A stretch of DNA of 64,000 nt from Tubiluchus corallicola (taxonomy: Eukaryota; Priapulida; Priapulimorpha; Priapulimorphida; Tubiluchidae). Where the stretch lies: contig JAQGDQ010000419.1 in assembly GCA_030141605.1 (NCBI GenBank), positions 139,168 through 203,167 of the forward strand, in the 5' to 3' direction. Under the pieces are notes generated by a model. That model was not told the DNA's origin, searched no databases, and saw nothing but the letters and a program-made list of their open reading frames with translations. Shown in pieces: positions 32,488 to 63,009 of this stretch. The translations under genes and the position numbers were made by a program. The stretch's first letter is position 1; every line of letters starts with the position of its first letter.

Positions 32488-32659
32488 ATGCCTCACAATA
32501 TAGCAACTGTGTTCGTCTTATACTGCACTTCATGGCTTGTATTTGTTACTAGTGAATCAAGAGACAAGACCTCTGGAAGTCTGATGTATAATGCAACGTT
32601 AAATTCGAAAAACGAGAAAGAACCACATTTCAGCTCTACTGAAAGTTTTCTCAACAAAG
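32488..32659 (+). CDS. Protease A exon 1 (signal peptide and propeptide)
   Basis: ATG chosen because it is the in-frame start shared with copy B (M(P/A)HNIATVFVLYCTSWLVF). The hydrophobic core runs to about residue 21, followed by a charged propeptide. Donor GTTAGT, phase 1. Confidence 0.8.
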
Positions 32660-35600
32660 GTTAGTCAAAAAAGCCTAAACAAGAATTAACAAATCCCATA
32701 ATTATATTTACATCAGCTGAAACAAAATGCATTAACTGTAGTAGTGTAAGAGTCAGAAATGCGCTTTTTTCATTAGATTTGTAATAAATTATATTTTCTC
32801 GTATCCATCTGCTGTTAATTCAAAATTTATTTTAGTACTGATATGAAGATATCAGTGCTATAAACGGTATTGGCATGTAGTATCAATATGCACTAGCCAA
32901 ACCCCGTAAAAGAATTTTGCACATAAATTCACTGAAACAACTCACGCCACACCACACCAACCTGTCACACCACTCAAAATACACCGCACCACCCACACCA
33001 CACCATAACACGACACCACTCACACCACCCACTTAACACACCCACCGCACCACACCACACCACGCAACCACCTAACACCCCACTAACTCCACACCACTCA
33101 CAACACATCATACCACACCAACCCACTGCACCACTCACAGCACACCACCCACACCACACTACGCCACACCACCCACAACAAACCACATCCACCACACTAC
33201 ACCAACTCCACCCACACATCACTGCCTACACCCTACCATCCCACCAGATTATCCACGCCATATCACCCACACCACACCACTCAGATCTCACTAAACCACA
33301 CCCACCACACCACCCACACCACTCCACCAGCCCACACACAACCTACCACCCCACCACACCATCCACAGCACAGCACAACACCACCATCACACCACGCAAC
33401 ACCCACCACATCACACGGTGAGCATGATATTGATGGCGATGATGATTAATGCCAATGATAATGACACCTACAGCACTAGCACCAACAGTACAGTATCACA
33501 GCGAAATCATTCAGAACATTTTGCACAATGTCGAAACTGTGTGCTATAATAAATGCTCTTAGTCTGCCTACCAATGATCAATAATGCACGGACATTCTAC
33601 ATTGTTTTGTTTGCTGCTTCTCAGATGATCATAGGCTAACACAACTTACGTAAAATCGATAACGCTACGGAACGGCGGGTGAAAAAAATGCCTAGAACAG
33701 CCGCGAAGTTTCAAAGACAATGGATGTTCCAAATAGTGTACAGCGTAGGGGGTTGAAAAAGAATTTTGAAATACACCTTCCCGTTTCGTCTAGTGGACAT
33801 CTCTCCCAAGGAAACCTTCAACATTTTGTAGACCGTTTTCGTCCTTTCTGTGAATGTGCTTATTTTTTCCCAACATGCCCAAATAGTTGCAGAAATTGAG
33901 TTTTTCTAGAGACTGTTTGAGCACTTTTCTGCAAAATTTGTGTGGTTGGGTCCGAAAAAACGCCCGTCACGGGACGCCGTGGCCCTTCCGCAAAATCTAA
34001 ATATGACTGTTACATCCACCGTTGATTGGGCTATTGAATCATTACCAGCAACGCCCGTGGCCCGTTCCGTATCTCTAGAAATAAGAGGTACAAGTTTTGC
34101 AAAAAATAGGCAAAATATGGCCGTTTTTAGAGCTTTTTCGCCCCCCCGTTCCTCCCGGTGGGCCAGATTCGAAAAATAAACTACCGGGTGCGGACCTATG
34201 TGTGGAGAGCTTTCATTTGACGTCGAGAATGGTGCCGTCGTCGGAGCTGTAGCTTCGTTGGTTATAAATCCATATATATATATATACGACAATTTGGGGA
34301 CATCTATTGACAAAAACAAGAAGCATTATATTCTATAGTACCACCTTAAGCATAAATTGAAACATCACTTAAAATCCAAATAACTATCTTTTCCCTGTGA
34401 CGTTAAAACTATCTTTTACCATTATTTCTGACAGTGGGATTACTCTGTGATAATGTTGTTTTGAATTTACTGACTAATCAATTTTTAGTGAAGCCATTTT
34501 CATAGTTTTTGGTAATGACAATGCAAGTTCATTTTAGCAGAACAGATTTCACCAGAATCAAGGATTATTGGTGGAGAAGATGCCGCTGATGGAGAATTTC
34601 CCTTTATGGTATAAACTTCGGTTTCTTATTGATCAAACAAAGTTTTATAAGTAAGCCTATATTAATAGGCTCAAAACAAGTAAAAAGACGACAGATGCTT
34701 TTTTGTACTAATACGGATGACACAAGCAGCGCCATTATTTGATTGTATCTACATTTTAAATTAGTAAAACATTAATCACTTTCATTTCGTAACAAATTAT
34801 GGTGAAATTGTGTATGCCTTGAGGAGGAATAAGCTTTTTGTAATCTAGTGTCAGGTTTTGATGGGCGAGAAACCTCAGGAAGTGGTCATGGTGGAAGTAG
34901 GAAACCTTCCTTGGGGGGACATCTCAACCTATCGTCTTTATGGAAGACAATTGGGACAAGATAGGCTCCAAAACCTACAAAAGTAATCAAATAATGAATG
35001 TACTAATGTTACTATAAACTAGCAAGGCTGCACAAAACATTTGTGACATTCGTTGCATATATGGGAGCTATTTTAAGGAATAAACAACGTTGTCGTCCTA
35101 CTCGCGACTGTCATTGTCGCTGCCATCACACTATCCGTCATTGCGACCATTAGCGGTACAACAGCTTTTTGTGCAATGAGAAGGACGTTATTTATAACGC
35201 CACTATTTTAGTCTTTGTTATTATAACTTCGTCATCATTGTCATTGCTGTTCGTTATCAACTTGGTTATCTTTATTTTCGCTATTTTTGTTTCAAATAAT
35301 CATCATTCTTATCGTCGTTGCTGTTGTTAAGAGACGACAAGCTGACTTAAGCACTACACTAAACCACAAAATTAACGGATTATAGAGTTTGTGAATTTTA
35401 CTTTTACTGTTTATACCTTTCTGCCCCTCAGTCTTCACATACTTTCAACTGCACATACGGGTCCACATCATTAAAGGAAAAGTCAAGTTTCAAACAACAT
35501 GAAGTGCAATTAAACTACAACTAAAAATATTGCAATTACTGCAGAATACACGAACATATAAGATGTTGCTTAAAATTTACAATTCTTACTTCCGGCCAAA

Positions 35601-38600
35601 CGAAATAAGCTGTTGACATACTTGAAAAATTAGTTTTAGGAAAGCTGACCAACATGAAAATGCGCTGCAGGCCATCTCGCTATCTGACGACTATTAGCAG
35701 CGATATTAAATCCTTAATACATTGTATTTTTTAAGGTTACACTTGGCTATGAAGGAAACTTTTTGTGTGGAGCCACAATCATCAACGAACGATGGGTATT
35801 GACAGCAGCTCATTGTCTGCTTGGGTAAGTATATCACTTTTGACAGCAAGTTACGACAGACAGCAGAAGTGCAAAATACAATGCGTCAATTATCAGCAGT
35901 TCTTGTGTGTTTAAGTAAGTACGTCATTTTCAAAGCACGCGGTTACAAAGAAGTGCGTAATACAATGCGTCAATTATCAGCAGCTTGTTGTGTGTTTAAG
36001 TAAGTACGTCATTTTTCAAAGCATGCGGTAACAAAGAAGTGCATAATACAATGCGTCAATCATGAACAGCTCCTTGTGTGTTTAAGTAAGTACATCACTT
36101 TTCAAAGCACGCGGTTACAAAGAAGTGCGTAATACAATGCGTCAATTATCAGCAGCTCGTTGTATGTTTAAGTAAGTACATCACTTTTCAAAGCACGCGG
36201 TTACAAAGAAGTGCATAGTACAATGCGTCAATTATCAGCAGCTCGTTGTGTGTTTAAGTAAGTACGTCATTTTTCAAAGCACACGGCTACAAAGAAGTGC
36301 ATAGTACAATGCGTCAATGATCAGCAGCTCATTGTGTGTTTAAGTAAGTACGTCATTTTCAAAGCACGAGGTTACAAAGAAGTGCATAATACAATGCATC
36401 AATTATCAGCAGCTCGTGTTCTTGAGTAAGTACGTCATTTTCAAAGCACGCGGTAACAAAGAAGTGCATAACACAATGCGTCAATTATCAGCAGCTCGTT
36501 GTGTGTTTAAATAAGTACATCACTTTTCAAAGCACGCGGTTACAAAGAAGTGCGTAATACAATGCGTCAATTATCAGCAGCTCATGTTCTTGAGTAAGTA
36601 CATCACTTTTCAAAGCACGCGGTTACAAAGAAGTACATAGTACAATGCATTAATTATCAGCAGTTCATTGATGTGTTTTTGGGTAAATACTTTTGACAGC
36701 ACATTGTACAACGTGTTGTACATTCCACAGTGCACCTAGTAGGAAGTGCATAGAATTTTGATCATAATAGGAAAAGATTTACTAAAATGGAAAGAAAATG
36801 GATTTTTAATGTATATTAGAAAATTTTCCGGACAAAGTTATATTACTTAACATTACGCTTATCCATTTTCTGCTATTTGAAAGATTAATTGAAAAAGAAA
36901 ATTCTTGAATATAATTTAAAATTCCTGCCCCAACTGGGTAAATGTCACTAAACCATGATCCCAGTGTGCACTTCTGCTTATCAAAAACCCATCATTGATC
37001 TTATTGACAATAATATGAAGTAATTAAAACTTTCGTTTAGCGAATAATGTGCTACAAATGCTCTGGTATGTTTTCAAATTTATGTAATATTATTACAAGT
37101 TTTATAAAGCGTTGCAGCCAATGAAAGTCCTAATTGCAATAAGACAGCATGTAAGTGATACAAATATTCAAACTTTTCTACTTATGAAAAGCGTTCTCTT
37201 GTCTTACAAAGCTCCAAACCTGGCCATGATAAAGTAAGTCATATCTAATCAAGCTAAACAACACAGGAACAAGGAAAGTAAATTAAATTTTGCTTAAAAT
37301 TAATTAAATAAATACATAAATAGATCAATATTAAGCGCAGTCAACAGTATAGCATTATTTTCTAGCAAAAAAGCAGGTCCACACTTTGAAGTTTACATGG
37401 GAAGCAACATTTTTTACAACCCGAAGGTGAAGCGCTTTGTAAGTTTACATGAAGTTTTTTAAATTTACATGCATGAGTTCATATTTACATGAACTTCTTA
37501 CGTTTATAATTATGGGGTTTAATTTTTTGAATCGGTCCCCCTAGGACGAACAGGTGGGGAAAACCTCCAAAAATGTCCATTTTACCCATTTTTTTGCAAA
37601 ACTTATACTTCTTGTTTCTAGAGAATTGAAATGTGTCGGCAGTGGTGCTGATAATGGTTAGATAGCCCTTTCAATGGTGGGTGTTATAGTCATTTTTAGA
37701 TTTTGCGGGAGGGCCACTAATACCCACTCCCGGCATTTTCCCAGACCCAAGCATACAAATTTTGCAAAAAATTGCTCAAACAGCCTCTGGAAAAACTCAT
37801 TTTGTGCAACTGTTTGGGCATGTTGGGAAAAAATAAGCACACTCGCAGAAAGAGGACGAAACGGTCTACAAAAAACTTAAGGTATCACTAGGGGAGATAT
37901 CCACTGGACGAAACGAGAGAGGTGTATCATCCTTCTACCTTTTTCGTTTCACCAGTCACGGAATCTGATATTATAAGTATATGCAAATGTTTTGATCGAA
38001 ATAAAGGTTCTGGTACGGATAATCTCCGCCACAAAGTTATTATAGATGAAATTGGAAGTATCATTACCTCTTTGACACACATAATTAATATTTCACTTAA
38101 ACTGGTACTGTTCCTTCTAAAACGATCAATTATCATCCCTATCTTCAAATCCAAAGCTTCTTTGGACATTAACAATTATAGACCTATCTCACTGTTACCT
38201 TTTTCAAAAATATTGGAAAAAGTTGTTTACAATAAAATATTATCTTGTTTGCATTATCACAACATAATAAATAATAAGCAGTTTGGTTTTCCGAAAAACA
38301 GCTTAACTGAATTGGCTTGGATAAACATTGTACAGAGTATAACTAAATGCACTGAACAAAATAAAGTAGCAGCAGGGATATCTTGTGACCTCTCTAAGCT
38401 CTTTGATACTGTTAATCGAAAAATACTTCTTGTTAAACTACATTATTACAGTCTTAGAGGGGTAGTAAAGGCATGGATATCTAGTGATCTTCATCGGAGA
38501 ACACCAGTGGTTCGATATAATAATGTAATTTCAAATGAATACCACAAGGTTCAATTTTAGGTCCACTGCTATTTTTAATATATAAAAATGACATAAAATG

Positions 38601-41600
38601 TTCTTTAGCTATTCCAAATCTGTTACAGTTTGCACATGATACGAGCATATTCTTTGAGTTAAATAAGGCTGATAATTTAAAATATATCAGCCGCAAATGA
38701 CAAAATATTGCTATTTGGTTCAAAACGAACGAGTTGTCATTAAATTCTACAAGAACTTAATGTATGATTTTTAGAGCAAGACACAAGAAAATTCCAATTA
38801 ATAATGGTGATATTAACTCCAAAATTCCCCTATTGGAATCATACAGGAAATGAAATTTTTGGGAATCATTCTAAGTGAACACATGGATTGGAAGCCGCAC
38901 ATAGACACGATCAAAAGTGAAATTTCAAAAAGTATAGGTGTCATATGTAGGACTAAAATTGCTTTACTAACTGACATCTAATAACCTTGTACAATTGTTT
39001 AATGTTACCATACTTCACATACTGTTGTCTCCTTTGGGAAGAGAATATCTTAGTTTAGCATGTTTTAAAACTAATAAACTTTTAACTGTTGACGATTTAA
39101 TACACCTGAATACAGCTATATGTATAAAACTAAATATCATCTATTTTCAACATTCTTTAATAATCCAGTCCGTTATGCAACCAGAATGAACGAGTTTGTA
39201 GAACGGACGTGGCACATCAGTGTACATCATTTTTTGGAGTTTCTTTTCTGTCACATTACTCACATTTTTTAGGCTACTGGGATGGGATCGGTTTAGCAAT
39301 CAAATTATTAAGCACTTTATGTTCTGTGAATTAAAGCTAAAGCAGGCCTAATCAGGAGTGGTGGCAACCCTATTCACATATGATACATTATAATGTCGTA
39401 CGTGAACTTAATTAGCTTTCGCATTGTTGCTTTACGCAGGCGAATGCTTTCAAGATGCACCCTCTCTATGCGAATGATTCGACCAGAGCTAAAGAAAATG
39501 ATATTGCCCTCGTCCAAATGCACAGCCGCGTCACGTTTGATAAATATGTTCAGCCTACGTTACTACCACGTCACCGCTGGACTCACCCGAGAAATGAAAC
39601 AGTTGTGATTTTATTAGGATGGGGCGTTCGAGATCCAGGTAATTTACAGGTTAAACAGAGAAGAAAAGAATATTTCGACTATATGGGATAGCTAGTTTTA
39701 TGACTGCTTTATCAGTTTTCACTATTTATGCATGAAATAGTTCCGCCCCCATTTAAGGATAATTTTAATTTGTGTCACAGGAAACAGAAAAAGAAGTTAC
39801 CTTTTCTCTCATTTTTGTTGCTTTTCACAAATTTATGTTCGTTCCTTAAATGCAATATTAGAAACGTGTCTGGAATTGCAAAAGTTATAGTTATGCATAA
39901 CTTTGAATGTTTGGTGTAGTATGTTTATTTAATTTTTTGGAAGGTCTGCTGTTTTGTGATTAACGGATAAAATATTTTATCAGATTTTTAACTAGAAAGT
40001 TGTGCTAGAACATTTTTTGCTTTAAGAAACGATTTTTGTTGCATCATTTCATGAACGTCTTTCAAAGTGGCACAATTTCTGATAGAGAATTAGGCAGTAC
40101 GGATCAAAAATCTCACCTTCAAGAGATAATAATTTGTATTTCATTCTTAGACAAAAACCGACGATGCCCAACCTTGTAAAATATTTTAAAACATTAACGA
40201 GTCTGTTCTTTAAAACAATTAAAATATTGAATGAGTCCGTTCATTTAAAATAATTAAAACAATTAACGAGTCTGTTCCCTTAAAGCAATTAAATCGATTA
40301 ATTAGCCTGTTCGTTTAAAACAATTAAAGCTATTTAACGAGTCTATTCTGATCTTCAGTCCTAATGAGCTGCCACCTGTTGGCCAGTGTGCCAACTCATC
40401 TACTGCCTTGGGAAAAAAGGAAATAGTAAACAGCGGTTTAAAAATTAATTTGATCGTCACAGAGTTAGCAACATAAGTAGCACCTCTAAATTCGGTCTGC
40501 GTAGAAATTGAGCAGGCCTCACCCATACATAACTACTCACTTAATGGTTTTAAACCCCTCGTCGAAGTGATAATGTGTTCAAAAAAGAATTTATGTGCAT
40601 AATGAGTGAAAATAATCATTCAGCCAACTACACTTTACTAAAATTTCATGCTTTGTCGACAAAATTAAGCTGGCCTTGTTTCACGAAACCGTCACTAACT
40701 TAACAACGTCGTTATGGCTCTTTCTTGCACGACGTCATGCCACTAAGTGTCATGGCGGGCGATAATAATTGTTACAGTACCAACCGCATTTAATTTACAT
40801 TACCTATCACATAAAAGTATGCAACAGAACTGTTTCTAAAAATAAGAAATTCTGCGTATGCTATAAAAGACAATAATATAAAAATAGTATTATAAGATCT
40901 TTAAAGCACAAGAAAACCCTACATAAACATAAAGCTTAAAAAACTCGTCTTGAAATTTTATATCACTTATAGTATACGGCCTTTCTGCTTGCAGGACTTC
41001 AATCAGCAATCACGCCATATAAAACATGTAAATTTAAACTCCCGCGATGACTGTCAGACGCAGATTTTTACGACAGGTCATTTAAAACATGTTTAGATAA
41101 CATTGCTTGTCAACGACGTTTTACCAACTCGCAAAAACATTTTAAATACTTTGAATAATTAAAAATTTTCATTTTTAGTTACATAAGTCTTTGTAGCAGG
41201 TAAGCGAAAAGCTAAGTAATATAGTTTTGCTAGGAAAGCTTTTTGGGACGTAATTTAGCATTTATTTTTCTTCCCATGATTTACGTTGTGCGTAGGTGAC
41301 GTCATGTAATGACGCCTTAGGAATAGTATTATGGGAGATTTAATGAAGATAAACAAAAATTCCTTTCAATGCGAACACGATATAGGCATAAAATTGCTAT
41401 AAAGTCATGTAATTGTTTAACGCAATTTTTCTGAAACGTATTTCTGCTACCCCTTTTCTTGTCTTTTGGATGAATGTAATAAAGACTTCGTTAACTTTGT
41501 ATATATATATATATATGGTTCTTTTTTCAAAGTTGGTGATACGTCAAAGAACTTACAAAAGACGACATTTTCAATTAGCGATGTGAAGCAGTGTGATTTT

Positions 41601-42533
41601 ATATTTGATGACACTTTCTCCATTTGCATGTATAAGCCAGGACGGAGCGCTTGTTTCGTAAGTGTAGTAAAATTACTTTATTGAAAAAGTATTAATGGCA
41701 GCTAGCCCTACATGAATACTTCACTGCAATGTTATAAGCAAATATGATAGTACTTAAAAAATTGAACACTGAATAAAATACATCACTTACCCAATACAAC
41801 AATGTTTAAGAAAAAGCACTTATTAAAAATAAATAAAATTGACTTTTAAACTGTTTAACGTAAGACGAATGCAAGAAAACTTTACACTCTGAAAAAGCTG
41901 ATATCCTGGTCATAGACAGAAATCGAAAAACGTCTAAAATTGTTTGAAGTGAGCGTCATCGAGAGAATCAACTGGTTTCAATGGAGGAGGTTTAACCCAT
42001 TTCGGCAATTTTTCATGAAAATTACGTAATATGAAGCAATGGCTAATCTGGATGTGTTATTGCAGAAATTTTCAATTTCTTTTAGCTAATAACTAGGCAA
42101 TTATAGAATGTTTTGAGATTTTGTTCATTATTATCTGAAATTTGAGATTATATGTTTATATATAATACACACACATATATATATAAACACATATACATAT
42201 AATATTATTCTGTAAATCGATAAAGAAAAGCCTTTTTGGGAAAATCGTACAGTACAAACAAACTATTCACAGGGTGACTCAGGTGGTCCACTGATACTGA
42301 AAGCTACCAGAGAACAAATTGGAGTTATAACTACTGGTGGTAATAAACAGTGCAATACTTTCAGTCTATGTTTAAAAGTTTCTAATTATCTAGACTGGAT
42401 TAAGAATGATAGTTCAAAGGTTCAGCCAAGTCTGTCTGGTGCAGCTTCAAAATGTTACCTGACTTTATTGACAATAATTACCGTTGTTGCGGCTGTACGT
42501 TTCGGTTTGTGGGCAGGTACAGAGTTAAAGTAA
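32488..42533 (+). CDS. Chymotrypsin-fold serine protease A (8 exons, 339 aa)
   Basis: Predicted secreted S1A-family endopeptidase. Exons: 32488-32659, 34538-34608, 35736-35824, 37110-37150, 37377-37438, 39440-39638, 41533-41657, 42273-42533; phases join, total 1020 nt including TAA. Signal peptide MPHNIATVFVLYCTSWLVFV, activation site SPESR|IIGG (66/67), catalytic His107 (LTAAHC), Asp166 (ENDIALVQ), Ser256 (GDSGGP). The residue at the trypsin-189 position appears to be Ser (GRSACF-GDSGG), which favours a chymotrypsin-like rather than trypsin-like pocket (inference). After the protease domain a Ser/Ala linker leads to a hydrophobic tail (YLTLLTIITVVAAV), so it may be membrane- or GPI-anchored. 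Exons 4 and 5 are the least certain; the exon 5 acceptor is ambiguous. No closer orthologue is recognised. Confidence 0.85.
32943..33418. repeat. CCACAC-rich simple-sequence array, copy A
   Basis: Irregular array of CCACA, CACC and ACACC words with almost no G on the plus strand, in protease A intron 1. The minus-strand ORFs rich in Cys, Trp, Gly and Val are read-through of this array. Confidence 0.95.
33783..34165 (+). repeat. Unclassified interspersed repeat, left arm (copy A)
   Basis: Contains CAACATGCCCAAA, GAGACTGTTTGAGCACTTTT, CCTTCCGCAAAATCTAAATA and ATCTCTAGAAATAAGAGGTA. Each block has a reverse-complement counterpart at 37540-37925. The element probably extends to about 34290. Superfamily unknown; protease A intron 1. 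Confidence 0.75.
34538..34608 (+). CDS. Protease A exon 2 (activation site)
   Basis: Reads EQISPESRIIGGEDAADGEF; R|IIGG is the zymogen cleavage point. Acceptor TTTTAG, donor GTATAA, phase 0 out. Identical peptide in copy B. Confidence 0.93.
34609..35735. other. Protease A intron 2, no element resolved
   Basis: Conserved with 54295-55431 in copy B. A mildly repetitive ATTGTCGCTGCCATC / TCATCATTGTCATTGC stretch lies at about 35110-35340. Confidence 0.5.
35736..35824 (+). CDS. Protease A exon 3 (catalytic His)
   Basis: Reads VTLGYEGNFLCGATIINERW, then VLTAAHCLL with the catalytic His. Donor GTAAGT at 35825. The last part of this exon and its donor seed the following minisatellite. Confidence 0.95.
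35790..36700 (+). repeat. Exon-3-derived minisatellite, about 86-bp unit, copy A
   Basis: About ten units follow exon 3. Each has CAATTATCAGCAGCTC(G/A)TTGTGTG then TTTAAGTAAGTAC and ATCACTTTTCAAAGCACGCG. This mirrors the real exon end GCAGCTCATTGTCTGCTTG|GTAAGTATATCACTTTTGACAG. Donor-like GTAAGT sites recur at about 35914, 36000, 36086, 36172, 36258, 36344, 36425 and 36594. One unit (about 36320) still encodes AAHC. Confidence 0.93.
37110..37150 (+). CDS. Protease A exon 4 (short loop exon)
   Basis: Only 41 nt: GVAANESPNCNKTA in the frame set by exon 3 (GG|C). Acceptor TATAAAG, strong donor GTAAGT. Copy B conserves it with TATATAG. Support comes from phase and conservation. Confidence 0.65.
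37377..37438 (+). CDS. Protease A exon 5
   Basis: Reads PHFEVYMGSNIFYNPKVKRF, the usual strand after the His loop of S1 proteases. Donor GTAAGT, phase 0. Acceptor AAGCAG (giving Cys at the junction) is preferred because the nearby CTAG would put the protein out of frame; AAAAAAG three bases upstream is the alternative. Confidence 0.68.
37540..37925 (-). repeat. Unclassified interspersed repeat, right arm in opposite orientation (copy A)
   Basis: Reverse-orientation relative of 33783-34165 (GATTTTGCGGGAGGGCCAC, CAAACAGCCTCTGGAAAAAC). It directly precedes the LINE reverse-transcriptase fragment in protease A intron 5. Confidence 0.72.
37922..39200 (+). pseudogene. Non-LTR retrotransposon reverse transcriptase fragment, copy A
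   Basis: RT blocks in order: NKGSGTDNLRHKVI, NNYRPISLLPFSKILEKVVY, KQFGFPKN, SCDLSKLFDTVNRKILL, then after a frameshift PQGSILGPLLFLIY and LLQFAHDTSIFF. The catalytic FADD is FAHD. Looks CR1/jockey-like. Frameshifts, stops and two deletions relative to copy B make it dead. It lies in protease A intron 5, same strand. Confidence 0.9.
39440..39638 (+). CDS. Protease A exon 6 (catalytic Asp)
   Basis: Reads ANAFKMHPLYANDSTRAKEN, then DIALVQMHSRVTFDKYVQPT with the catalytic Asp, and ends VVILLGWGVRDP with the conserved GWG. Acceptor TACGCAG, donor GTAATT, phase 1. Confidence 0.94.
39639..41532. other. Protease A intron 6 (rest)
   Basis: Apart from the degenerate tandem repeat and a (TA)n tract just before exon 7 (about 41500-41516), nothing recognisable. 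Colinear with 59849-61985. Confidence 0.5.
40184..40345. repeat. Degenerate short tandem repeat (AACAATTAA-GAGTCTGTTC), copy A
   Basis: Repeated AAAACAATTAAA...AACGAGTCTGTTC words of about 35-45 bp in protease A intron 6. Confidence 0.8.
41533..41657 (+). CDS. Protease A exon 7
   Basis: Reads GDTSKNLQKTTFSISDVKQC, then DTFSICMYKPGRSACF up to just before the Ser motif. Acceptor TTTTTTCAAAG, reached only after a 4-bp loss relative to copy B. Donor GTAAGT, phase 0. Confidence 0.85.
42273..42533 (+). CDS. Protease A exon 8 (catalytic Ser and C-terminal tail)
   Basis: Reads GDSGGPLILKATREQIGVIT, then NTFSLCLKVSNYLDWIK, a Ser-rich linker SLSGAASKC and a hydrophobic tail ending GTELK-stop. Acceptor TTCACAG. 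The pocket loop reads TTGGNKQC. Confidence 0.95.
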   Translation, partial: GDSGGPLILKATREQIGVITTGGNKQCNTFSLCLKVSNYLDWIKNDSSKVQPSLSGAASKCYLTLLTIITVVAAVRFGLWAGTELK

Positions 42534-52265: not shown

Positions 52266-52437
52266 ATGGCTCATAATATAGCAACTGTGTTCGTCTTATA
52301 CTGCACCTCATGGCTTGTATTTGTTACTAGTGAATCAAGAGACAAGACCTCTGGAAATCTGATGTATAATGCTGCGTTAAGTTCGAAAAACGAGGAAGAA
52401 CCATATTTCAGCTCTATTGAGAGTTCTCTCAACAAAG
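52266..52437 (+). CDS. Protease B exon 1 (signal peptide and propeptide)
   Basis: MAHNIATVFVLYCTSWLVFV hydrophobic leader followed by a charged propeptide; donor GTTAGT, phase 1. Same length as copy A. Confidence 0.8.
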
Positions 52438-55400
52438 GTTAGTCAAAAAAGTCTAAACAAGAATTAACAAATTCCGTAATTATATTTACATCAGCTGAAA
52501 CAAAATGCATTAACTGTAGCGTAAGAGTCAGAAATGCACTTTTTTCATCAGGTTTGTAATAAATTATATTTTCTGTTAATTCAAAATTTATTTTAGTACT
52601 GATATGAAGATATCAGTGCTATAAACAGTATTGGCATGTAGTATTAATATGTACTAGCTAAACCCCGTAAAAGAATTTTGCGCATAATTTCAGTGAAACA
52701 ACCTACGCCACACCACACCAACCTGCCATTCCACTCAAAATACACCGTACCACCCACACCACACCATAACACGACAGCACTCATACCACAGCACACCACC
52801 CACTCAACACACCACACCCACCACACCACATTATACCACACCAACCCACCACACCACTCACAGCACACCGCCCACACCACACTACACCATACCAGTACAC
52901 CACACCACCCACAACAAACCACATCCACCAAACTACACCAACACCACCCACACCTCACTGCCTACACCCTACCACCCCACCAGATTATCCATGCCACATC
53001 ACCCACACCACACCACTCAGATCTCACTAAAACCACACAAACCACACCATCCACAGCACAGCACAACACCTTCACCACACCACACAACACCCACCACATC
53101 ACACGGTGATCATGATGTTGATGGCGATAATGATGCCAATGATGATGACACCTACAGCACCAGCACCAACCGTACAGTATCACAGTGAAAGCATTCAGAA
53201 CATTTTGCACAATGTCGAAACTGTGTACTATAATAAATGCTTTTAGTCTGCCTACCAATGACAATAATGACATTCTACATTGTTTTGTTTGCTGCTTCTC
53301 AGATGATAATAGGCTAACACAACTTACTTACATGTAAAATCTATAACGCTATAGAACGGCGGGTGAGAACAATGCCTGGAACAGCCACGAAGTTTCTTAA
53401 ACTCAAAGACAATGGTGTTCCAAATAGCATACAGCGCAGAGGGTTGAAAAAGAACTTTGAAATACACCTTCCCGTTTTGTCTAGTGGACATCTCTCCTAA
53501 GGGAACGTTCAACCATTTGTAGACAGTTTTTGTGCTTTCTGTGAATGTTTTTTCCCCACATGTCCAAACAGTTGCAGAAGTTGAGCATTTCTAGAGACTG
53601 TTTGAGCACTTTTCTGCAAAATTTATGTGGTTGGGTCCGAAAAAACGCCCGTCACGGAACGCCGTGGCCTTTCCGCGAAATCTAAGTTTTACACCCACCG
53701 TTGATTGGGCTATTTAATCATTACCATCACCACCCGCACCACCCGTGGCCCATTCCGTATCTCTAGAAATAAGAGGTATAATTTTTGCAAAAAACGGGCA
53801 AAAAAGGCCGTTTTTGGTGTTTTTTCGGCCCCCGTTACTCCCGGTGGCCCAGATACGAAAAATAAACCCCCGGGTGTGAACCTATGTGTAGAGAGCTTTC
53901 ATTTGACGTATAAACCGTCGAGAATGGTGCCGTCGTCGGAGCTGTAGCTACCACCGAAATTCATATATATACGATAATTTGGCGACATCTATTGACAAAA
54001 ACAAGAAGCATTATATTCTATAGTTCCACCTTGAGCAATAAATTGAAACATCACTTAAAATCTAAATAACTATCTCTTTCCTGTGATGTTAAAACTATCT
54101 TTTCCTATTATTTCTGACACTGGGATTACTCTGTGATAATGTTGTTTTGAATTTACTGACTAATCAATTTTTAGTGAAGCCATTTCCATAGTTTTTGCTA
54201 ATGACAATGCAAGTTCATTTTAGCAGAACAGATTTCACCAGAATCAAGGATTATTGGTGGAGAAGATGCCGCTGATGGAGAATTTCCCTTTATGGTATAA
54301 ACTTCGGTTTCTTATTGATTAAACAAAGTTTTATAAGTAAACCTATATTAATAGGCTCAAAACAGGTAAAAAGACGACAGATGCTTTTTTGTACTAATAC
54401 GGACGACACAAGCAGCGGCATTATTTGATTGTATCTGCATTTTAAATGAGTAAAAGATTAATCACTTTCATTTCGTAACAAATTATGGTGAAATTGTGTA
54501 TGCCTTGAGGAAGAATAAGCTTTTTGTAATCTAGTGTCAGGTTTTGATGGGCGAGAAACCTCAGGAAGTGGTCCTGGTGGAAGTAGCAAACCTTCCGTGG
54601 GGGGACATCTCAACCTATCGTCTTTATGGAAGACAATTGGGACAAGATAGGCTCCCAAACCTACAAAAGTAATCAAATAATGAATGTACTAATGTTACTA
54701 TAAACTGGCAAGGCTGTGCAAAACATTTGTGACATTCGTTGCATATATGGGAGCTGTTTTAAGGAATAAACAACGTTGTCGTCCTACTCGCGACTGTCAT
54801 TGTCGCTGCCATCGCACTATCCGTCATTGCGACCATTAGCGGTACAACAGCTTTTTGTGCAATGAGAAGGACGTTATTTATAACGCCACTATTTTACTCT
54901 TTGTTATTATAACTTCGTCATCATTATCACTGCTGTTCGTTATCAACTTGGTTATCCCTATTTTCGCTGTTTTTGTTTCAAATAATCATCATTCTTATCG
55001 TCGTTGCTTTTGTTAAGAGACGACAAGCTGACTTAAGCACTACACTAAACCACAAAATTAATGGATTATAGAGTTTGTGAATTTTACTTTTACTGTTTGT
55101 ACCTTTCTGCCCCTCAGTCTTCACATACTTTCAACTGCACTTACCGGACCAGATCATTAAAGGAAAAGTCAAGTTTCAAACAACATGAAGTGCAGTTAAA
55201 ATACAACTAAAATATGGTAATTACTGCAGAATACACGAACATATAAGTTGTTGCTTAAAATAACGAAAGAAATTTACAATTCTTACTTCCGGCCAAACGA
55301 AATAAGCTGTTGACATACTTGAAAATTAGTTTTACGTAAGCTGGCCAACATGAAAATGCGCTGCAGGCCATCTCGCTATCTGACGACTATTAGTAGCGAT

Positions 55401-58400
55401 ATTAAATCCTCAATACATTGTATTTTTTAAGGTTACACTTGGCTATGAAGGAAACTTTTTGTGTGGAGCCACAATAATCAACGAACGGTGGGTATTGACA
55501 GCAGCTCATTGTCTGCTTGGGTAAGTATATCACTTTTGACAGGAAGTTACGACAGACAGCAGAAGTGCAAAATACAATGCGTCAATTATCAGCAGTTCTT
55601 GTGTGTTTAAGTAAGTACATCATTTTCAAAGCACGCGGTTACAAAGAAGTGCGTAATACAATGCGTCAATTATCAGCAGCTTGTTGTGTGTTTAAGTAAG
55701 TACGTCATTTTTCAAAGCATGCGGTAACAAAGAAGTGCATAATACAATGCGTCAATTATTAGCAGTTCTTGTGTGTTTAAGTAAGTACATCACTTTTCAA
55801 AGCACGCGGTTACAAAGAAGTGCGTAATACAATGCGTCAATTATCAGCGGCTGATTGTGGGTTTAAGTAAGTACGTCATTTTTTAAAGCACACGGTAACA
55901 AAGAAGTGCATAATACAATGCGTCAATTATCAGCAGCTCGTTGTGTGCTTGAGTAAGTACATCACTTTTCAAAGCACGCGGTTACAAAGAAGTGCATGAT
56001 ACATTGCGTCAATTATCAGCAGCTCGTGTTTTTGAGTAAGTACGTCATTTTCAAAGCACGCGGTTACAAAGAAGTGCATAATACAATGCGTCAATTATCA
56101 GCAGCTCATGTGCTTGAGTAAGTTCATCACTTTTCAAAGCACGCGGTTACAAAGAAGTACATAGTACAATGCATTAATTATCAGCAGTGCATTGATGTGT
56201 TTTTGGGTAAATACTTTTGACAGCACGTTGTTCAACACGTTGTGCATTGCACAGTGCACCTAATCGGAAGTGCACAGAATTTTGATCATCATAGGAAAAG
56301 ATTTACTAAAATGGAAAGAAAATGGATTTTTAATGTATATTAGAAAAATTTTCCGGACAAAGTTATATTACTTAACGTTACACTTATCCATTTTCTGCTA
56401 TTTGAAAGATTAATTGAAAAAGAAAATTCTTGAATATAATTTAAAATTCCGGCCCCAACTGGCTAAATGTCACTGAACCATGATCCCAGTGTGCACTTCT
56501 GCTTATCAAAAACCCATCATTGATCTTATTGACAATAATATTAAGTAATTAAAACTTTCGTTTAGCGAATAATGTGCTACAAATTCTCTGGTATGTTTTC
56601 AAATTTCTGTAATATTATTACAAGTTTTATATAGCGTTGCAGCCAATGAAAGTCCTACTTGCAATAAGACAGCATGTAAGTGATACAAATATTCAAACTT
56701 TTTATGCTCTACTTATGAAACGTGTTCTCTTGTCTTACAAACCTCCAAACCTGGCCATGATAAAGAAAGTCATATCTAATCAAGCTAAACAACACAGGAA
56801 CAAGGAAAGTAAATTAAATTTTGCTTAAAATTAATTAAACAAATACATAAATAGATCAATATTAAGTGCAGTCAACAGTATAGCATTATTTTCTAGCAAA
56901 AAAGCAGGTCCACACTTTGAAGTTTACATGGGAAGCAACATTTTTTACAACCCGAAGGTGAAGCGCTTTGTAAGTTTACATGAAGTTTTTTAAAATTACA
57001 TGCATGAGTTCATATTTACATGAAGTTCTTACGTTTATAATTATGGGGTTTTATTTTTTGAATCGGTCCCCCTGGGACGAACGGGTGGGGAAAACCTCCA
57101 AAAATGCCCATTTTACCCATTTTTTTGTAAAACTTATACTTCTTGTTTCTGGAGAATTGAAATGTTTCGGCAGTGGTGCTGGTAATGGTTAGATAGCCCT
57201 TTCAATGGTGGGCGTTATAGTCATTTTTAGATTTTGTGGGAGGGCCACTAGTACCCACTCCCGGCATTTTCCCAGACCCAAGCATACAAATTTTGCAGAA
57301 AATTGCTCAAACAGCCTCTGGAAAAACTCAATTTGTGCAACTGTTTGGGCATATTGGGAAAAAATAAGCACACTCGCAGAAGGAGGGCGAAACGGTCTAC
57401 AAAAAACTCAAGGTATCACTAGGGGAGATATCCACTGGACGAAACGAGAGAGGTGTATCATCCTTCTACCTTTTTCGTTTCACCAGTCACGGAATCTGAT
57501 ATTATAAGTATATGCAAATGTTTTGAACGAAATAAAGGTTCTGGTACGAATAATCTGCGCCACAAAGTTATTATAGATGTAATTGAAAGTATCGTTACCT
57601 CTTTGACACATATAATTAATAATTCACTTAAAACTGGTACTGTTCCTTCTAAAACGATCAATTATCATCCCTATCTTCAAATCCAAAGATTCTTTGGACA
57701 TTAACAATTATAGACCTATCTCGCTGTTACCTTTTTCAAAAATATTGGAAAAAGTTGTTTACAATAAAATTTTATCTTGTTTGCGTTATCACAACATAAT
57801 AAATAATAAGCAGTTTGGTTTTCCGAAAAACAGCTTAACTGAATTGGCTTGGATAAACATTGTAGAGAGTATAACTAAATGCACTGAACAAAATAAAGTA
57901 GCAGCAGGGATATCTTGTGACCTCTCTAAGCTCTTTGATACTGTTAATCGAAAAATACTTCTTGTTAAACTACATTATTACAGTCTTAGAGGGGTAGTAA
58001 AGGCATGGATATCTAGTGATCTTCATGGGAGAACACCAGTGGTTCGATATAATAATGTAAATTCAAATGAATACCACAAGGTTCAATTTTAGGTCCACTG
58101 CTATTTTTAATATGTAAAAATGACATAAAATGTTCTTTAGCTATTCCAAATCTGTTACAGTTTGCACATGATACGAGCATATTCTTTGAGTTAAATAAGG
58201 CTGATAATTTAAAATATATCAGCCGCAAATTACAAAATATTGCTATTTGGTTCAAAACGAATGAGTTGTCATTAAATTCTACAAGAACTGAATGTATGAT
58301 TTTTAGAGCAAGACACAAGAAAATTCCAATTAATAATGGTGATACTAACTCCAAAATTCCCCTATTGGAATCATACAGGAAATGAAATTTTTGGGAATCA

Positions 58401-61400
58401 TTCTAAGTGAACACATGAATTGGAAGCCGCACATAGACATGATCAAAAGTGAAATTTCAAAAAGTATAGGTGTCATATGTAGGACTAAAATTGCTTTACT
58501 AACTGACATCTAATAACCTTGTACAATTGTTTAATGTTACCATACTTCACATACTGTTGTCTCCTTTGGGGACACACATATACAACTAATATAAATAGAT
58601 AGCGAGTCATCCAAAAAAATTTTTTAGAATCACTTATAATCTTAGAATAAGAGAATATCTTAGTTTAGCATGTTTTAAAACTAATAAACTTTTAACTGTT
58701 GACGATTTAATACACTTGAATACAGCTATATGTATAAAACTAAATATCATCTATTTTCAACATGCTTTAAGAATCCAGTCCGTTATGCAACCAGAATGAA
58801 CGAGTTTGTCGAAAATTTCTGTAGAACGGACGTGGCATGGCAATTCAATGGAAATGTTGGTCCAAGGCTTTGTAATGACATAAATGATGAACTAAAAATT
58901 ATTCAGCCAATTCAAAAATTTAAAAACAAATATAGAGCAACGATTTTCAACAAGTACAACACTTCTTAATATTCTACACCTACTGCAGTAGTCATGCCAC
59001 AATCCTGGTACAGATTATACAAAACACGACATCATTGATAAATCTTTAGAGCTAATGTAAACATCGCACAATCGACTGTCTTTGTTTGTACTATTTCCGC
59101 TAACTCATCATTTTTCCTGCCCTGTGTGATCTAACCTTTCTGCCCAGGTATAGACATTGTCTTTATTTTGGTACCCCACGTGATACTGCTTTTACCCAAG
59201 ATATCGAACTAATTGCTGCATTCACACGTAAGGTTGCCACCCTGTCATGAACCAAAGTCAGGCGTCAAGAGGCAAGAAGCACCCCCAGGTGAGCATCGGG
59301 AGAGAGCACCGGTTTTTATGAATTTTTTCAGAAACTAAAATCAAGAAATTCAAACTAAAAAGTTGTAAAAATTCTTGATTTTAGACTCCAAAAAGCCCTA
59401 AATATCTAAAACTTACAAAAGTGCAAGCAGTGTACATCATTTTTTGGAGTTTCTTCTCTGTCACATTACTCACATTTTTTAGGCTGCTGGGATGGGATCG
59501 GTTTAGCAATCAAATTATTAAGCACTTTATGTTCTGTGAATTAAAGCTAAAGCAGGCCTAATCAGGAGTGGTGGCAACCCTATTCACATATTATACATTA
59601 TAATGCCTTACGTGAACTTAATTAGCTTTCGCATTGTTGCTTTATGCAGGCGAATGCTTTCAAGATGCACCCTCTCTATGCGAATGATTCGACCAGAGCT
59701 AAAGAAAATGATATTGCTCTCGTCCAAATGCACAGCCGCATCAAGTTTGATAAATATGTTCAGCCTACATTACTACCACGTCTCGGCTGGACTTACGACA
59801 GAAATGAAACAGCTGTAATTGTAGTAGGATGGGGCCTTCGAGATCGAGGTAATTTACAGGTTAAACAGAGAAGAAAAGAATATTTCGACTATATGGGATA
59901 GCTAGTTTTATGACTGCTTTATCAGTTTTGACTATTTATACATGACATAGTTCCCCCATTGAAGGATATTTTTAATTTGTGTCACGGGAAGCAGAAAAGG
60001 ATGTTAACTTTTCTCTCATTTTTGTTGCTTTTCACAAATTTATGTTCGTTCCATAAATGCAATATTAGAAACGTTTCTGGAATTGCAAGTTATAGTTACG
60101 CATAATCTAGAATGTTTGGTGTAGTATGTTTATTTAATTTTTTGGAAGGTCTGCTAATTTGTGATTAACGGATAAAATATTTTATCACATTTTTAACAAG
60201 AAAGTTGTGCCAGAACATCTTTTGCTTTAAGAAACAATTTTTGTTGCATCATTTCATGAACGTCTTTCAAAGATGCACAATTTCTGATACAGAATTAGGC
60301 TGTAGAGATCAAAAATCTCACCTTCATGAGATAATAATTTGTATTTCATTCTTAGACAAAAACCGACGATGCCCCAAACAGCTACCTTGTAAAACAATAA
60401 CGAGTCTGTTCTTTAAAACAATTAAAACATTGAATGAGCCTGCTCATTTAAAATAATTAAAACAATTAACAAGTCTGTTCCCTTAAAGCAATTAAATCGA
60501 TTAATTAGCCTGTTCATTTAAAACAATTAAAGATATTTAACGAGTCTATTCTGATCTTCAGTCCTAATGAGCTGCCGCCTGTTGGCCAGTGTGCCAGCTC
60601 ATCTACTGCCTTGGAAAAAAGGAAATAAGGAAACAACACAGCTAGCCCGTAAAATATTTTAAAATAATTAACGAGCCTGTTCGTTTAAAACAATTAAAGC
60701 TATTTTACGAGTCTATTCTGATCTTCAGTCCTAATGAGCTGCCGCCTGTTGGCCAGTGTGCCAACTTATCTACTGCCTTGGGGGAAAAAAGGAAATAGTA
60801 AACAGCAGTTTAAAAATTAATTTGATCGTCACAGAGTTAGCAACATAAGTAGCACCTCCAAATTCGGACTGCACAGAAATTGAGCAGATCTGTTCCTTCA
60901 CCCATACATAACTACTCACTGAATGGTTTTAAACCAAAAAGAATTTATGTGCATAATGAGTGAAAAAATCATTCAGCCAACTACACTTCACTAAAATTTC
61001 ATGCTTTGTCGACAAAATTAAGCTGGCCTTGTTTCACGAAACCGTCACTAACTTAACAACGTCGTTATGGCTCTTTCTTGGCGACGTCGTGCCACAAAGT
61101 GTCATGGCGGGCAATAATAATTGTTACAGTACCAGCCGCATTTAATTTAGATTACCTATCACATAAAAGTATGCAACAGAATGTTTCTAAAATTAAGAAA
61201 TTCTGCCTATGCTATAAAAGACAATAATATAAAAAATAGTGTTATAAGATCTTTAAAGCACAAGAAAACCCTACATCAACATAAAGCTTAAAAAACTCGT
61301 CTTGAAATTTTATATCATTTATAGTATACGGCCTTTCTGCATGCAGGACTTCAATCGGCAGTCACGCCGTATGAAAGATGTAAATTTAAACTCCTGCGAT

Positions 61401-63009
61401 GACTGTCAGACCCAGATTTTTACGACAGGTCATTTGAAACAAGTTTAGATAACATTGCGTGTCAACGACATTTTACCAACTGCCGAAAACATTTTAAATA
61501 CTTTGAATAATTAAAAATTTTCTTATGTAGTTACATAAGTCTTTCTAGCAGGTAAGCGAAAAGCATAAGTACATGCAATATAGTTTTGCTAGGAAAGTTT
61601 TTCGGGACGTAATTTAGCATTTACTTTTCTTCCCCTGATTTACGCTGTGCGTAGGTGACGTTATGTAATGACGCCGTCGGAATAGAATGAAGATAAACAA
61701 AAATTCCTTTCAATGCGAGCACGATATACGCATAAAATTGCTATAAAGTCATGTAATTGTTTAACGCCATTTTTCTTAAACGTACTGGTACCCCTTTTCT
61801 TGTCTTTTGGATGAATGTAATTACGACGTCATTAACTTTGTGACGGCTTTGTGAAACCGGCCCCACTGGTCTAAATCACGTTTCAATGTGAAATTAAAGA
61901 TGCTTACACAACACAGCTAACTGACGCTTGTATAAATTGAATTCGCGCAGTATATATATATATATGGTTCTTTTTTCAAAATTAGCTGGTGATACGCCAA
62001 AGAACTTACAAAAGACGACATTATCAATTAGCGATGTGGGGAAGTGTCAATACTATGACGAGACTTTCACAATTTGCATATATAAGCCCGGACGGAGCAT
62101 TTGTTTCGTAAGTGTAGTAAAATTACTTTATTGAAAAAGTATTAATGGCAGCTAGCCCTATGTAAATACTACACTGCAAGGTTATAGGAAAATATGATAG
62201 TACTTAAAAAATTGAACACTGAATAAAATACATCACTTACCCAATACAAGAATGTTTAAGAAAAAGCACTTATTAAAAATAAATAAAATTGACTTTTAAA
62301 CTGTTTAACGTAAGACGAATGTCAAAAAAACTTTATACTCTGAAAAAGCTGATATCCTGGTTATAGACAGAAATCGAAAAACGTCTAAAATGGTTTGAAG
62401 TGAGTATCATCGAGAGAATCAACTGGTTTAATTGGAGGAGGTTTAACCCATTTCGGCAATTTTTCATGAAAATCACGTAATATGAAGCAATGGCTAATCT
62501 GGATGTGTCATTGCAGAAATTTTCAATTTCTTTTAGCTAATAACTAGGCAATTATAGAATGTTTTGAGATTTTGTTCATTATTATCTGAAATTTGAGATT
62601 ATATGTTTATATATAATACACACATATATATATATAAACACATATACATATAGAATTTATATATAGAACAAACTGTTTCACAATGACATGAACTTTGGCA
62701 ATAAAGTAGCTTATTTATAATATTTTATTACCTTTTGTGCATTCACAGGGTGACTCAGGTGGTCCATTGATACTGAAAGCTACCGGAGAACAAATTGGAG
62801 TTTTGACTAGGGTTGGTCATAATCAGTGCAATACTTTCAGTCTATGTTTAAAAGTCTCTTATTATCTAGACTGGATTAAGAATGAAAGTTCAAAGGTTCA
62901 GCCAAGTCTGTCTGGTGCAGCTTCAAAATGTTACCTGACTTTATTGACAATAATTACCGTTGTAGCGTCTGTACGTTTCGGTTTGTGGGCAGGTACAGAG
63001 TTAAAGTAA
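52266..63009 (+). CDS. Chymotrypsin-fold serine protease B (8 exons, 338 aa), paralogue of A
   Basis: Same exon plan as copy A: 52266-52437, 54224-54294, 55432-55520, 56635-56675, 56908-56969, 59650-59848, 61986-62107, 62749-63009; phases join to 1017 nt including TAA. Catalytic His107 (LTAAHC), Asp166 (ENDIALVQ) and Ser255 (GDSGGP) are all present, as are R|IIGG, the GWG motif and the hydrophobic C-tail. It has one residue fewer in exon 7 and differs from A mainly there (VGKCQYYDETFTIC) and in the pocket loop (LTRVGHNQC versus ITTGGNKQC). The Ser at the 189-equivalent is kept (GRSICF). An upstream in-frame ATG at 52224 would add 14 residues but is not usable in copy A. Both copies look functional; no stop or frameshift was found in the exons. 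Confidence 0.86.
52701..53104. repeat. CCACAC-rich simple-sequence array, copy B
   Basis: Counterpart of 32943-33418 in protease B intron 1, shorter and rearranged internally. The 143-codon His/Thr/Pro-rich ORF across it is an artefact of composition. Confidence 0.95.
53475..53860 (+). repeat. Unclassified interspersed repeat, left arm (copy B)
   Basis: Duplicate of 33783-34165 carried along in the segmental duplication; protease B intron 1. Confidence 0.75.
54224..54294 (+). CDS. Protease B exon 2 (activation site)
   Basis: EQISPESRIIGGEDAADGEF, identical peptide to copy A; acceptor TTTTAG, donor GTATAA. Confidence 0.93.
55432..55520 (+). CDS. Protease B exon 3 (catalytic His)
   Basis: VTLGYEGNFLCGATIINERW and VLTAAHCLL, identical peptide to A; donor GTAAGT at 55521 followed by the exon-derived minisatellite. 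Confidence 0.95.
55490..56215 (+). repeat. Exon-3-derived minisatellite, about 86-bp unit, copy B
   Basis: Same array as in copy A with about eight units; donor-like sites at about 55610, 55696, 55782, 55867, 55953, 56035 and 56117. Unit number and variants differ from copy A, so the arrays have changed since the duplication. Confidence 0.93.
56635..56675 (+). CDS. Protease B exon 4 (short loop exon)
   Basis: GVAANESPTCNKTA; acceptor TATATAG, donor GTAAGT. One substitution from copy A (Thr for Asn). Confidence 0.68.
56908..56969 (+). CDS. Protease B exon 5
   Basis: PHFEVYMGSNIFYNPKVKRF, identical to A; same acceptor ambiguity (AAGCAG preferred), donor GTAAGT. Confidence 0.68.
57068..57456 (-). 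repeat. Unclassified interspersed repeat, right arm (copy B)
   Basis: Duplicate of 37540-37925. Together with 53475-53860 it brackets exons 2-5 of protease B in inverted orientation. Confidence 0.72.
57453..58969 (+). pseudogene. Non-LTR retrotransposon reverse transcriptase fragment, copy B
   Basis: Same insertion as 37922-39200, with the same FAHD and the same frameshift before PQGSILGPLLF. It retains more 3' sequence: WGHTYTTNIN-like and YLSLACFKTNKLLTVDDLIH, ending in VGPRLCNDINDELK...FKNKY, a typical C-terminus of CR1/jockey-type RTs. A single-base difference shifts frame at about 57620 relative to A. Confidence 0.9.
59650..59848 (+). CDS. Protease B exon 6 (catalytic Asp)
   Basis: ANAFKMHPLYANDSTRAKEN, then DIALVQMHSRIKFDKYVQPT, ending AVIVVGWGLRDR. 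Several replacements relative to A in the LPRLGWTYDRNETA stretch. Confidence 0.94.
60388..60780. repeat. Degenerate short tandem repeat, copy B, with extra 165-bp duplication
   Basis: Counterpart of 40184-40345. The segment GATCTTCAGTCCTAATGAGC...CTACTGCCTTGG occurs twice (about 60554 and 60719) but once in copy A (about 40351). Confidence 0.85.
61986..62107 (+). CDS. Protease B exon 7
   Basis: AGDTPKNLQKTTLSISDVGK, then TFTICIYKPGRSICF. Acceptor AAATTAG, donor GTAAGT; 122 nt versus 125 in copy A. Confidence 0.88.
62749..63009 (+). CDS. Protease B exon 8 (catalytic Ser and C-terminal tail)
   Basis: GDSGGPLILKATGEQIGVLT, then RVGHNQCNTFSLCLKVSYYL and a tail like that of A (YLTLLTIITVVASVRFGLW). 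Ends TAA at 63009. Confidence 0.95.
   Translation, partial: GDSGGPLILKATGEQIGVLTRVGHNQCNTFSLCLKVSYYLDWIKNESSKVQPSLSGAASKCYLTLLTIITVVASVRFGLWAGTELK

Follow-up and report, generated by a model that had tools for sequence, protein, structure and literature searches.

The window, that is the whole stretch of 64,000 nucleotides of Tubiluchus corallicola DNA analysed here (GC content 35-37%), encodes a complete S1A protease gene, protease A, and a sister gene, protease B. Protease A consists of seven exons on the forward strand, and its spliced frame is open over 329 codons including the stop. These are exon 1 (32488..32659), which contains the start codon and a hydrophobic signal-like segment and splices into the open frame; exon 2 (34541..34608), with the motif RIIGG; exon 3 (35736..35824), which has a Pfam Trypsin match and ends in phase 2 with …WVLTAAHCLLG; exon 5 (39440..39638), with NDIAL; exon 7 (42273..42533), with GDSGGP, a hydrophobic tail and the stop codon; and exons 4 (37366..37438) and 6 (41533..41657), both placed from the spliced frame. 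RIIGG is presumably the activation site, and TAAHC, NDIAL and GDSGGP are taken to carry the catalytic His, Asp and Ser of the triad. The Pfam Trypsin domain (PF00089) is matched over its full length (profile 1-220 of 220, E 8.2e-43), and the closest solved structures by sequence are those of enteropeptidases and of a chymotrypsin. The real 5' splice site of exon 3, as placed from the gene structure, is GG/GTAAGT (35825..35830; the slash marks the exon end). A NAGNAG-type tandem acceptor (TTTTAGCAG) is also present ahead of exon 2 (window positions 34532-34540), where either choice would stay in frame.

The intron behind the His exon contains a minisatellite on the forward strand (35865..36678), each 86-bp unit of which joins a copy of the exon 3 end, the donor and the first intron bases, as delimited by TRF (9.6 copies of 86 bp, 89% match) and by alignment of the units. 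Exon 3 is thereby followed by ten decoy junctions, eight with GTAAGT, one with ATAAGT and one with GTAAAT. Indeed, (i) the first six decoy donors read AA/GTAAGT (A1, 35915..35920; A2, 36000..36005; A3, 36086..36091; A4, 36172..36177; A5, 36258..36263; A6, 36344..36349), (ii) two more read GA/GTAAGT (A7, 36426..36431; A9, 36594..36599), (iii) the donor of A8 is lost (ATAAGT, 36511..36516) and (iv) the last, diverged unit A10 has GG/GTAAAT (36683..36688). The first decoy lies 90 bp behind the real donor and the subsequent spacings are 82-89 bp. Read in the exon frame, AAHC is kept in one of the ten decoys, the one at 36344, and an Arg takes the position of the His in four; none of the eight decoys of protease B encodes AAHC. 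The initial annotation, made from the letters of this stretch, had described about ten 86-bp units copying the exon end and its donor, about eight near-perfect decoy donors and a single unit still coding for AAHC, and each of these points is borne out by TRF, the unit alignment and the counts. Alignment of the units with the end of exon 3 had been named beforehand as the test of their origin: the junction matches its downstream kilobase with a best local score of 53, the maximum among 200 shuffles being 27, and this self-match covers positions -36..+24 around the estimated exon end.

Protease B (52266..63006, forward strand) is described here by its exon matches rather than as a spliced gene; these were located exon by exon with tblastn (52266-52436, 54235-54294, 55432-55521, 56898-56969, 59650-59844, 62006-62107 and 62749-63006). 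Its exon 3 (55432..55520) is identical in protein sequence to that of protease A and is followed on the same strand by a homologous minisatellite (55561..56187, 7.4 units by TRF) with eight decoy donors between 55611 and 56207; over the array region the two genes are 93% identical. A DNA search of the 343.5-Mb assembly (gaps and withheld stretches apart) with the array returned seven places, namely A, B and five C1123 copies (L001-L005); the array therefore arose within this gene family, and a dispersed mobile repeat was rejected on the same ground. The five relatives each have a single decoy unit behind the exon and its donor, and the counterpart of this unit in A and B is the diverged one at the end of the array. 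Copy number thus differs between paralogues (ten decoys in A, eight in B, one in each C1123 gene), and the one-decoy relatives indicate that the array grew in place; they also lend support to the earlier idea of a tandem duplication running from the exon end into the intron. Within C1123, L002 and L003 are 99.98% identical and L004 and L005 99.84% identical over about 5.1 kb, the members of each pair lying about 59.9 kb apart, so each pair was counted once; they are either very recent duplications or assembly duplicates. The C1123 copies are mosaic, L001 being nearest to A and B around exon 3 and nearest to L004 at exon 5. The simplest history would be one ancestral tandem duplication followed, in the A/B lineage, by growth between the first and the last unit, then by gene duplication and by copy-number change between A and B; alternatively, the C1123 lineage may have lost units. 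A partial protease copy (L006, C2256:39500-47500, minus strand) was also observed; it shares 95% identity with A across 197 bases, and its exon 3 is cut short immediately ahead of the AAHC codons.

The combination of intron phase 2 and the donor GG/GTAAGT means that an exon extended past the real donor of protease A meets GGG TAA: an in-frame stop straddles the donor, and codon 111 is where translation would end for every one of the ten decoys. This leaves truncation or decay as the only possible outcomes of decoy use in A, and the elongated protein forms that had been envisaged for the decoys are refuted. In a simple U1 duplex calculation, which is a rough proxy for donor strength, the real donor reaches -12.2 kcal/mol in both A and B, whereas none of the 18 decoys pairs more strongly than -7.0; 16 of these 18 do not have a G at position -1, and the remaining two are those with GTAAAT. 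At the real donor of L004 the value is -7.2, which is decoy strength. Visible selection on the decoy donors was considered and rejected. In the 16 decoys that remain when the final one of each gene is set aside, identity in the GTAAGT columns is 99%, but conservation is equal or higher in 20 of 80 six-column windows (the GTAAGT window among them), so that these columns show no sign of selection.

The ladder is not peculiar to protease A. Three more S1A genes and two kinase genes of the genome have donor-side ladders. Besides A, B and L001-L005, junction copies were found at the S1A loci C84, C1504 and C1724. In C84, the array delimited by TRF, which takes in the real junction, has 27.1 units of 70 bp (95% match), and 19 of 23 recognised copies, again with the real one, share donor context and a U1 energy of -10.0. 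Since the C84 donors are mostly equal, strength alone cannot explain the choice of the first donor there; in genes of this type only position distinguishes equal donors, which makes them natural tests of first-donor choice by the spliceosome. The C1504 ladder has 3.1 units of 44 bp with 100% match, i.e. the real junction and two decoys, and that of C1724 is decayed (units of about 53 bp, 66% match). Among the kinase exons used as a control, two of 39 have spanning donor-side ladders. The first (L136, C1524:70033-71239, minus strand) comprises 22.3 units of 45 bp with 21 recognised copies, of which eight have GTGAGT (real one included), 11 have GC for GT and two are otherwise altered; the GC donors were perhaps spread by unit amplification. 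The second (L128, C662) has 25-bp units that start at the inferred donor and include about three exonic bases, and was counted nonetheless. At S1A exon 5 ends, the same shuffle test detected no junction ladder in 25 cases, and on the acceptor side, for which 20 kinase exon starts made up the whole sample, there was none in 20, a result without statistical power (at the frequency seen for donors, zero would be expected with a probability of 0.32). In L017 and L032 (C1207:21000-22100 and 27604-28672), an array of 23-bp units, about 26 in number, starts about 45 bp past the estimated exon end, near the junction and not spanning it.

These counts depend on how the exons were sampled. The 81 His-exon candidates (A, B, L001-L005, L007-L021, L025-L079 and L081-L084) are a part of the genome matches (147 matches in one search and, in another, the 100 listed of 157 places), chosen such that long open frames, which are probably intronless copies, were mostly omitted, as were some short ones. 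A recognisable His exon is present in 68; the other 13, in which no His-exon motif was recognised, were skipped. By intron similarity the 68 loci fall into 52 groups, or 51 with A/B and C1123 counted as a single origin, and junction copies occur at ten of the 68 loci, corresponding to four separate origins in the 51 groups. An eleventh His-exon locus, L069, also reached 0/200 shuffles and was dropped, its match (+24..+40) lying inside an AAAT repeat and not spanning the junction; L133 of the kinase set was dropped likewise (0/200, score 29 against a shuffle maximum of 28, +11..+28, not spanning). L045, L079 and L036 are borderline (4, 5 and 6 of 100 shuffles) and were left uncounted, as was L076 (1/200, match outside the junction), whereas L002 and L003 are weak but counted (0/200; 2/100 for L003 with a shorter probe) and, as members of the C1123 group, add no origin. 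L080 and L144 are arbitrary fillers and were unused, and L006 and L022 (the broken C2256 copy) are outside the count. The kinase exons, 39 of 140 matches, were chosen for short open frames; the 25 exon 5 ends comprise 20 of 65 matches and five loci already sampled, in 17 groups. The total of about 107 junction groups is approximate and consists of 51 His-intron groups, 17 exon 5 groups and 39 kinase loci. A large number of S1A matches fall in frames that stay open for about 270-380 codons without interruption (C783:1300-1527, C460:339182-339388 and others), which suggests intronless protease copies.

In this sample, a non-random one drawn from the surroundings of two gene families, minisatellites (period at least 10, at least 2.5 copies) make up 10.4% of 131 kb downstream of exon ends (132 loci: 68 + 25 + 39). 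Given this coverage of about 10%, six junction-spanning arrays in about 107 groups need no special cause; they are fewer than the 11 that coverage predicts (P 0.06). Counted in 100-bp bins from the junction, the array starts number 8 (6 independent), 5, 6, 4, 2, 6, 1, 3, 1 and 1, with no significant excess in the junction bin (6 independent starts compared with about 3.2 per other bin, Poisson P 0.11). Position-blind birth of repeats combined with tolerance suffices to account for the ladders, and the figures leave room for a mild attraction of arrays to junctions. About one exon end in twenty in the sample (6 of about 107 groups) has copies of its splice site behind it. Large minisatellites also occur in the window outside both protease genes, at 10223-12170 (58 bp), 17324-18267 (29 bp) and 2643-3028 (28 bp).

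This is a kind of repeat that has a name. Minisatellite-like tandem duplications of exon-intron boundaries were reported in lancelet globin genes, including BflGb6 and BflGb9, at both 5' and 3' boundaries, and called 'mirages' after the Adh3 case (PMC3087553); TnC and PGBD5 are additional mirage genes (PMC3902484), and in the cited portions of these two papers the kind is described in cephalochordates. The Adh3 data and globin RT-PCR were considered there to suggest that mirages do not disturb regular splicing, and mirages were proposed as possible seeds of new introns (PMC3087553). Protease A has both tandem copies of a real exon-intron boundary and units with splice signals (GTAAGT in eight of ten) and, like the lancelet hosts, is an ordinary protein-coding gene; by its sequence, the ladder would thus belong to this known kind, to which an S1A gene would be a new host. 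As in BflGb9, it is the 3' boundary of the exon that is duplicated. Array length differs between haplotypes in the lancelet accounts, whereas in the proteases it differs between paralogues. Further differences from lancelet mirages are the hosts (an S1A protease and kinases), the unit sizes (86 bp here and about 25, 44, 45, 53 and 70 bp in the other ladders), the in-frame stop at the real donor of A and the identity of one decoy unit with the exon end of a paralogue. In human segmental-duplication genes, minisatellite units likewise occur at exon-intron boundaries of recent duplicates; the variable internal tandem repeats described there are exonic or form new introns and change the transcript, whereas the present array is expected to be wholly intronic (PMC2812944). 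The intron-gain model of Rogers (cited in PMC3087553) and the potato RdRp gene (PMC4974935), as far as these sources present them, also involve tandem duplication with splice signals; here, in contrast, an existing intron has been lengthened and no new one is seen. That the initial annotation knew of no described S1A case holds to the extent that no junction minisatellite in such a gene was seen among the papers listed by a literature search that was aimed in one part at serine proteases; the kind itself, according to the lancelet reports, was already known.

Taken together, the ladder is most likely a junction-spanning, mirage-type minisatellite, a tolerated by-product of tandem duplication in whose presence the first donor is used. 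A neutral by-product had been among the initial suggestions, and it is the best supported of them, given ladders at unrelated exons, the base rate and the unremarkable conservation of the decoy donors. In brief, a tandem duplication of about 90 bp would have carried the last part of the His exon into the intron, leaving the exon whole with one decoy behind it, as the C1123 genes support; growth to several units in the A/B lineage, supported by the comparison of paralogues, would then have led to the present ten and eight decoys of the two tandem gene copies; and the first donor would be used, the array leaving with the intron. First-donor use is plausible because this donor is the best U1 match in A and B and any other choice gives the stop at the real donor. 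The array would be tolerated, not selected, as could be expected in a genome where minisatellites take up about a tenth of the intron-side DNA sampled, and occasional exchange between unit and exon could change the exon, as in the C1123 copies.

This last step rests on L004 and L005, in which the exon end and donor form the 29-mer CAGCAGCTCATTGTGTGTTTAA/GTAAGTA. Decoy unit A6 contains a letter-identical 29-mer (36322..36350, forward strand). Perfect matches in the searched genome are three, namely the exon 3 ends of L004 and L005 and decoy A6, and the five additional sites, which differ from it at one or two positions, are without exception units of the A or B array. Exon 3 ends in …LLG/GT in A, B, L001, L002, L003 and the distant paralogue L008, and the VFN end of L004/L005 therefore looks derived; exon 4 joins it in frame (AAHCVFN-RTTGPHF). 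By gene structure, the decoy-type donor AA/GTAAGT would thus serve as the real donor in these two genes, and the identity suggests that a decoy and a real exon end exchanged sequence. We accordingly offer, as a tentative reading that is less likely than not, that junction minisatellites act as a store of exon ends, units of which can rewrite an exon end and its donor through gene conversion or unequal crossing-over, and that a decoy unit was in this way written back into the coding exon of L004/L005, changing the residues behind the catalytic His from LLG to VFN and replacing the donor with that of the decoy. Such a reservoir is compatible with the by-product explanation, to which it adds a consequence. 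Several points weigh against it: L004 and L005 are 99.8% identical copies, so that there is effectively one event; simple arguments from a tree are weakened by the mosaic gene copies; the decoy of L004 itself is not the source (at most 15 consecutive bases in common); and the direction is inferred, that from decoy to exon being simpler though not proven, as the units may instead descend from, and have been seeded by, an L004-like exon end. Moreover, with so few units encoding AAHC and Arg in four of ten, a write-back that covers the His codon would in most cases inactivate the enzyme. If confirmed, exchange between decoys and exons would mean that repeats can alter proteins without being spliced in.

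Three other readings fare less well than that of a tolerated by-product. A regulated splicing switch, with tissue-dependent use of decoys and array length tuning protease output, is improbable. Its product would stop right after AAHCLLG, leading to nonsense-mediated decay or to a truncated inactive proenzyme; eight decoys do keep GTAAGT, and AA/GTAAGT, as the apparent real donor of L004/L005, looks usable. The decoy donor columns are not specially conserved, however, the same phenomenon occurs at unrelated kinase exons, and in the cited parts of the lancelet reports the arrays are said not to disturb splicing (PMC3087553, PMC3902484). We consider it very unlikely that the S1A His-exon junction itself, through its sequence or through selection, attracts arrays: although its four origins in 51 intron groups stand beside 0 of 25 at S1A exon 5, kinase exons are also laddered and the difference is not significant (Fisher P 0.69 against kinases, 0.42 against both control sets), for which reason specificity for the His exon was rejected. 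An assembly artefact, to which the two near-identical C1123 pairs, possibly a haplotype duplication, might point, is scarcely credible for the array, as A and B are diverged and differ in unit number and in unit-level sequence, and separate arrays are found on further contigs.

Finally, near-identical reverse-transcriptase-like frames are present between exons 4 and 5 of both protease A (37892-38560) and protease B (57616-58092), so that the insertion may predate the A/B duplication, and further frames of this type lie on the minus strand at 47564-49743.
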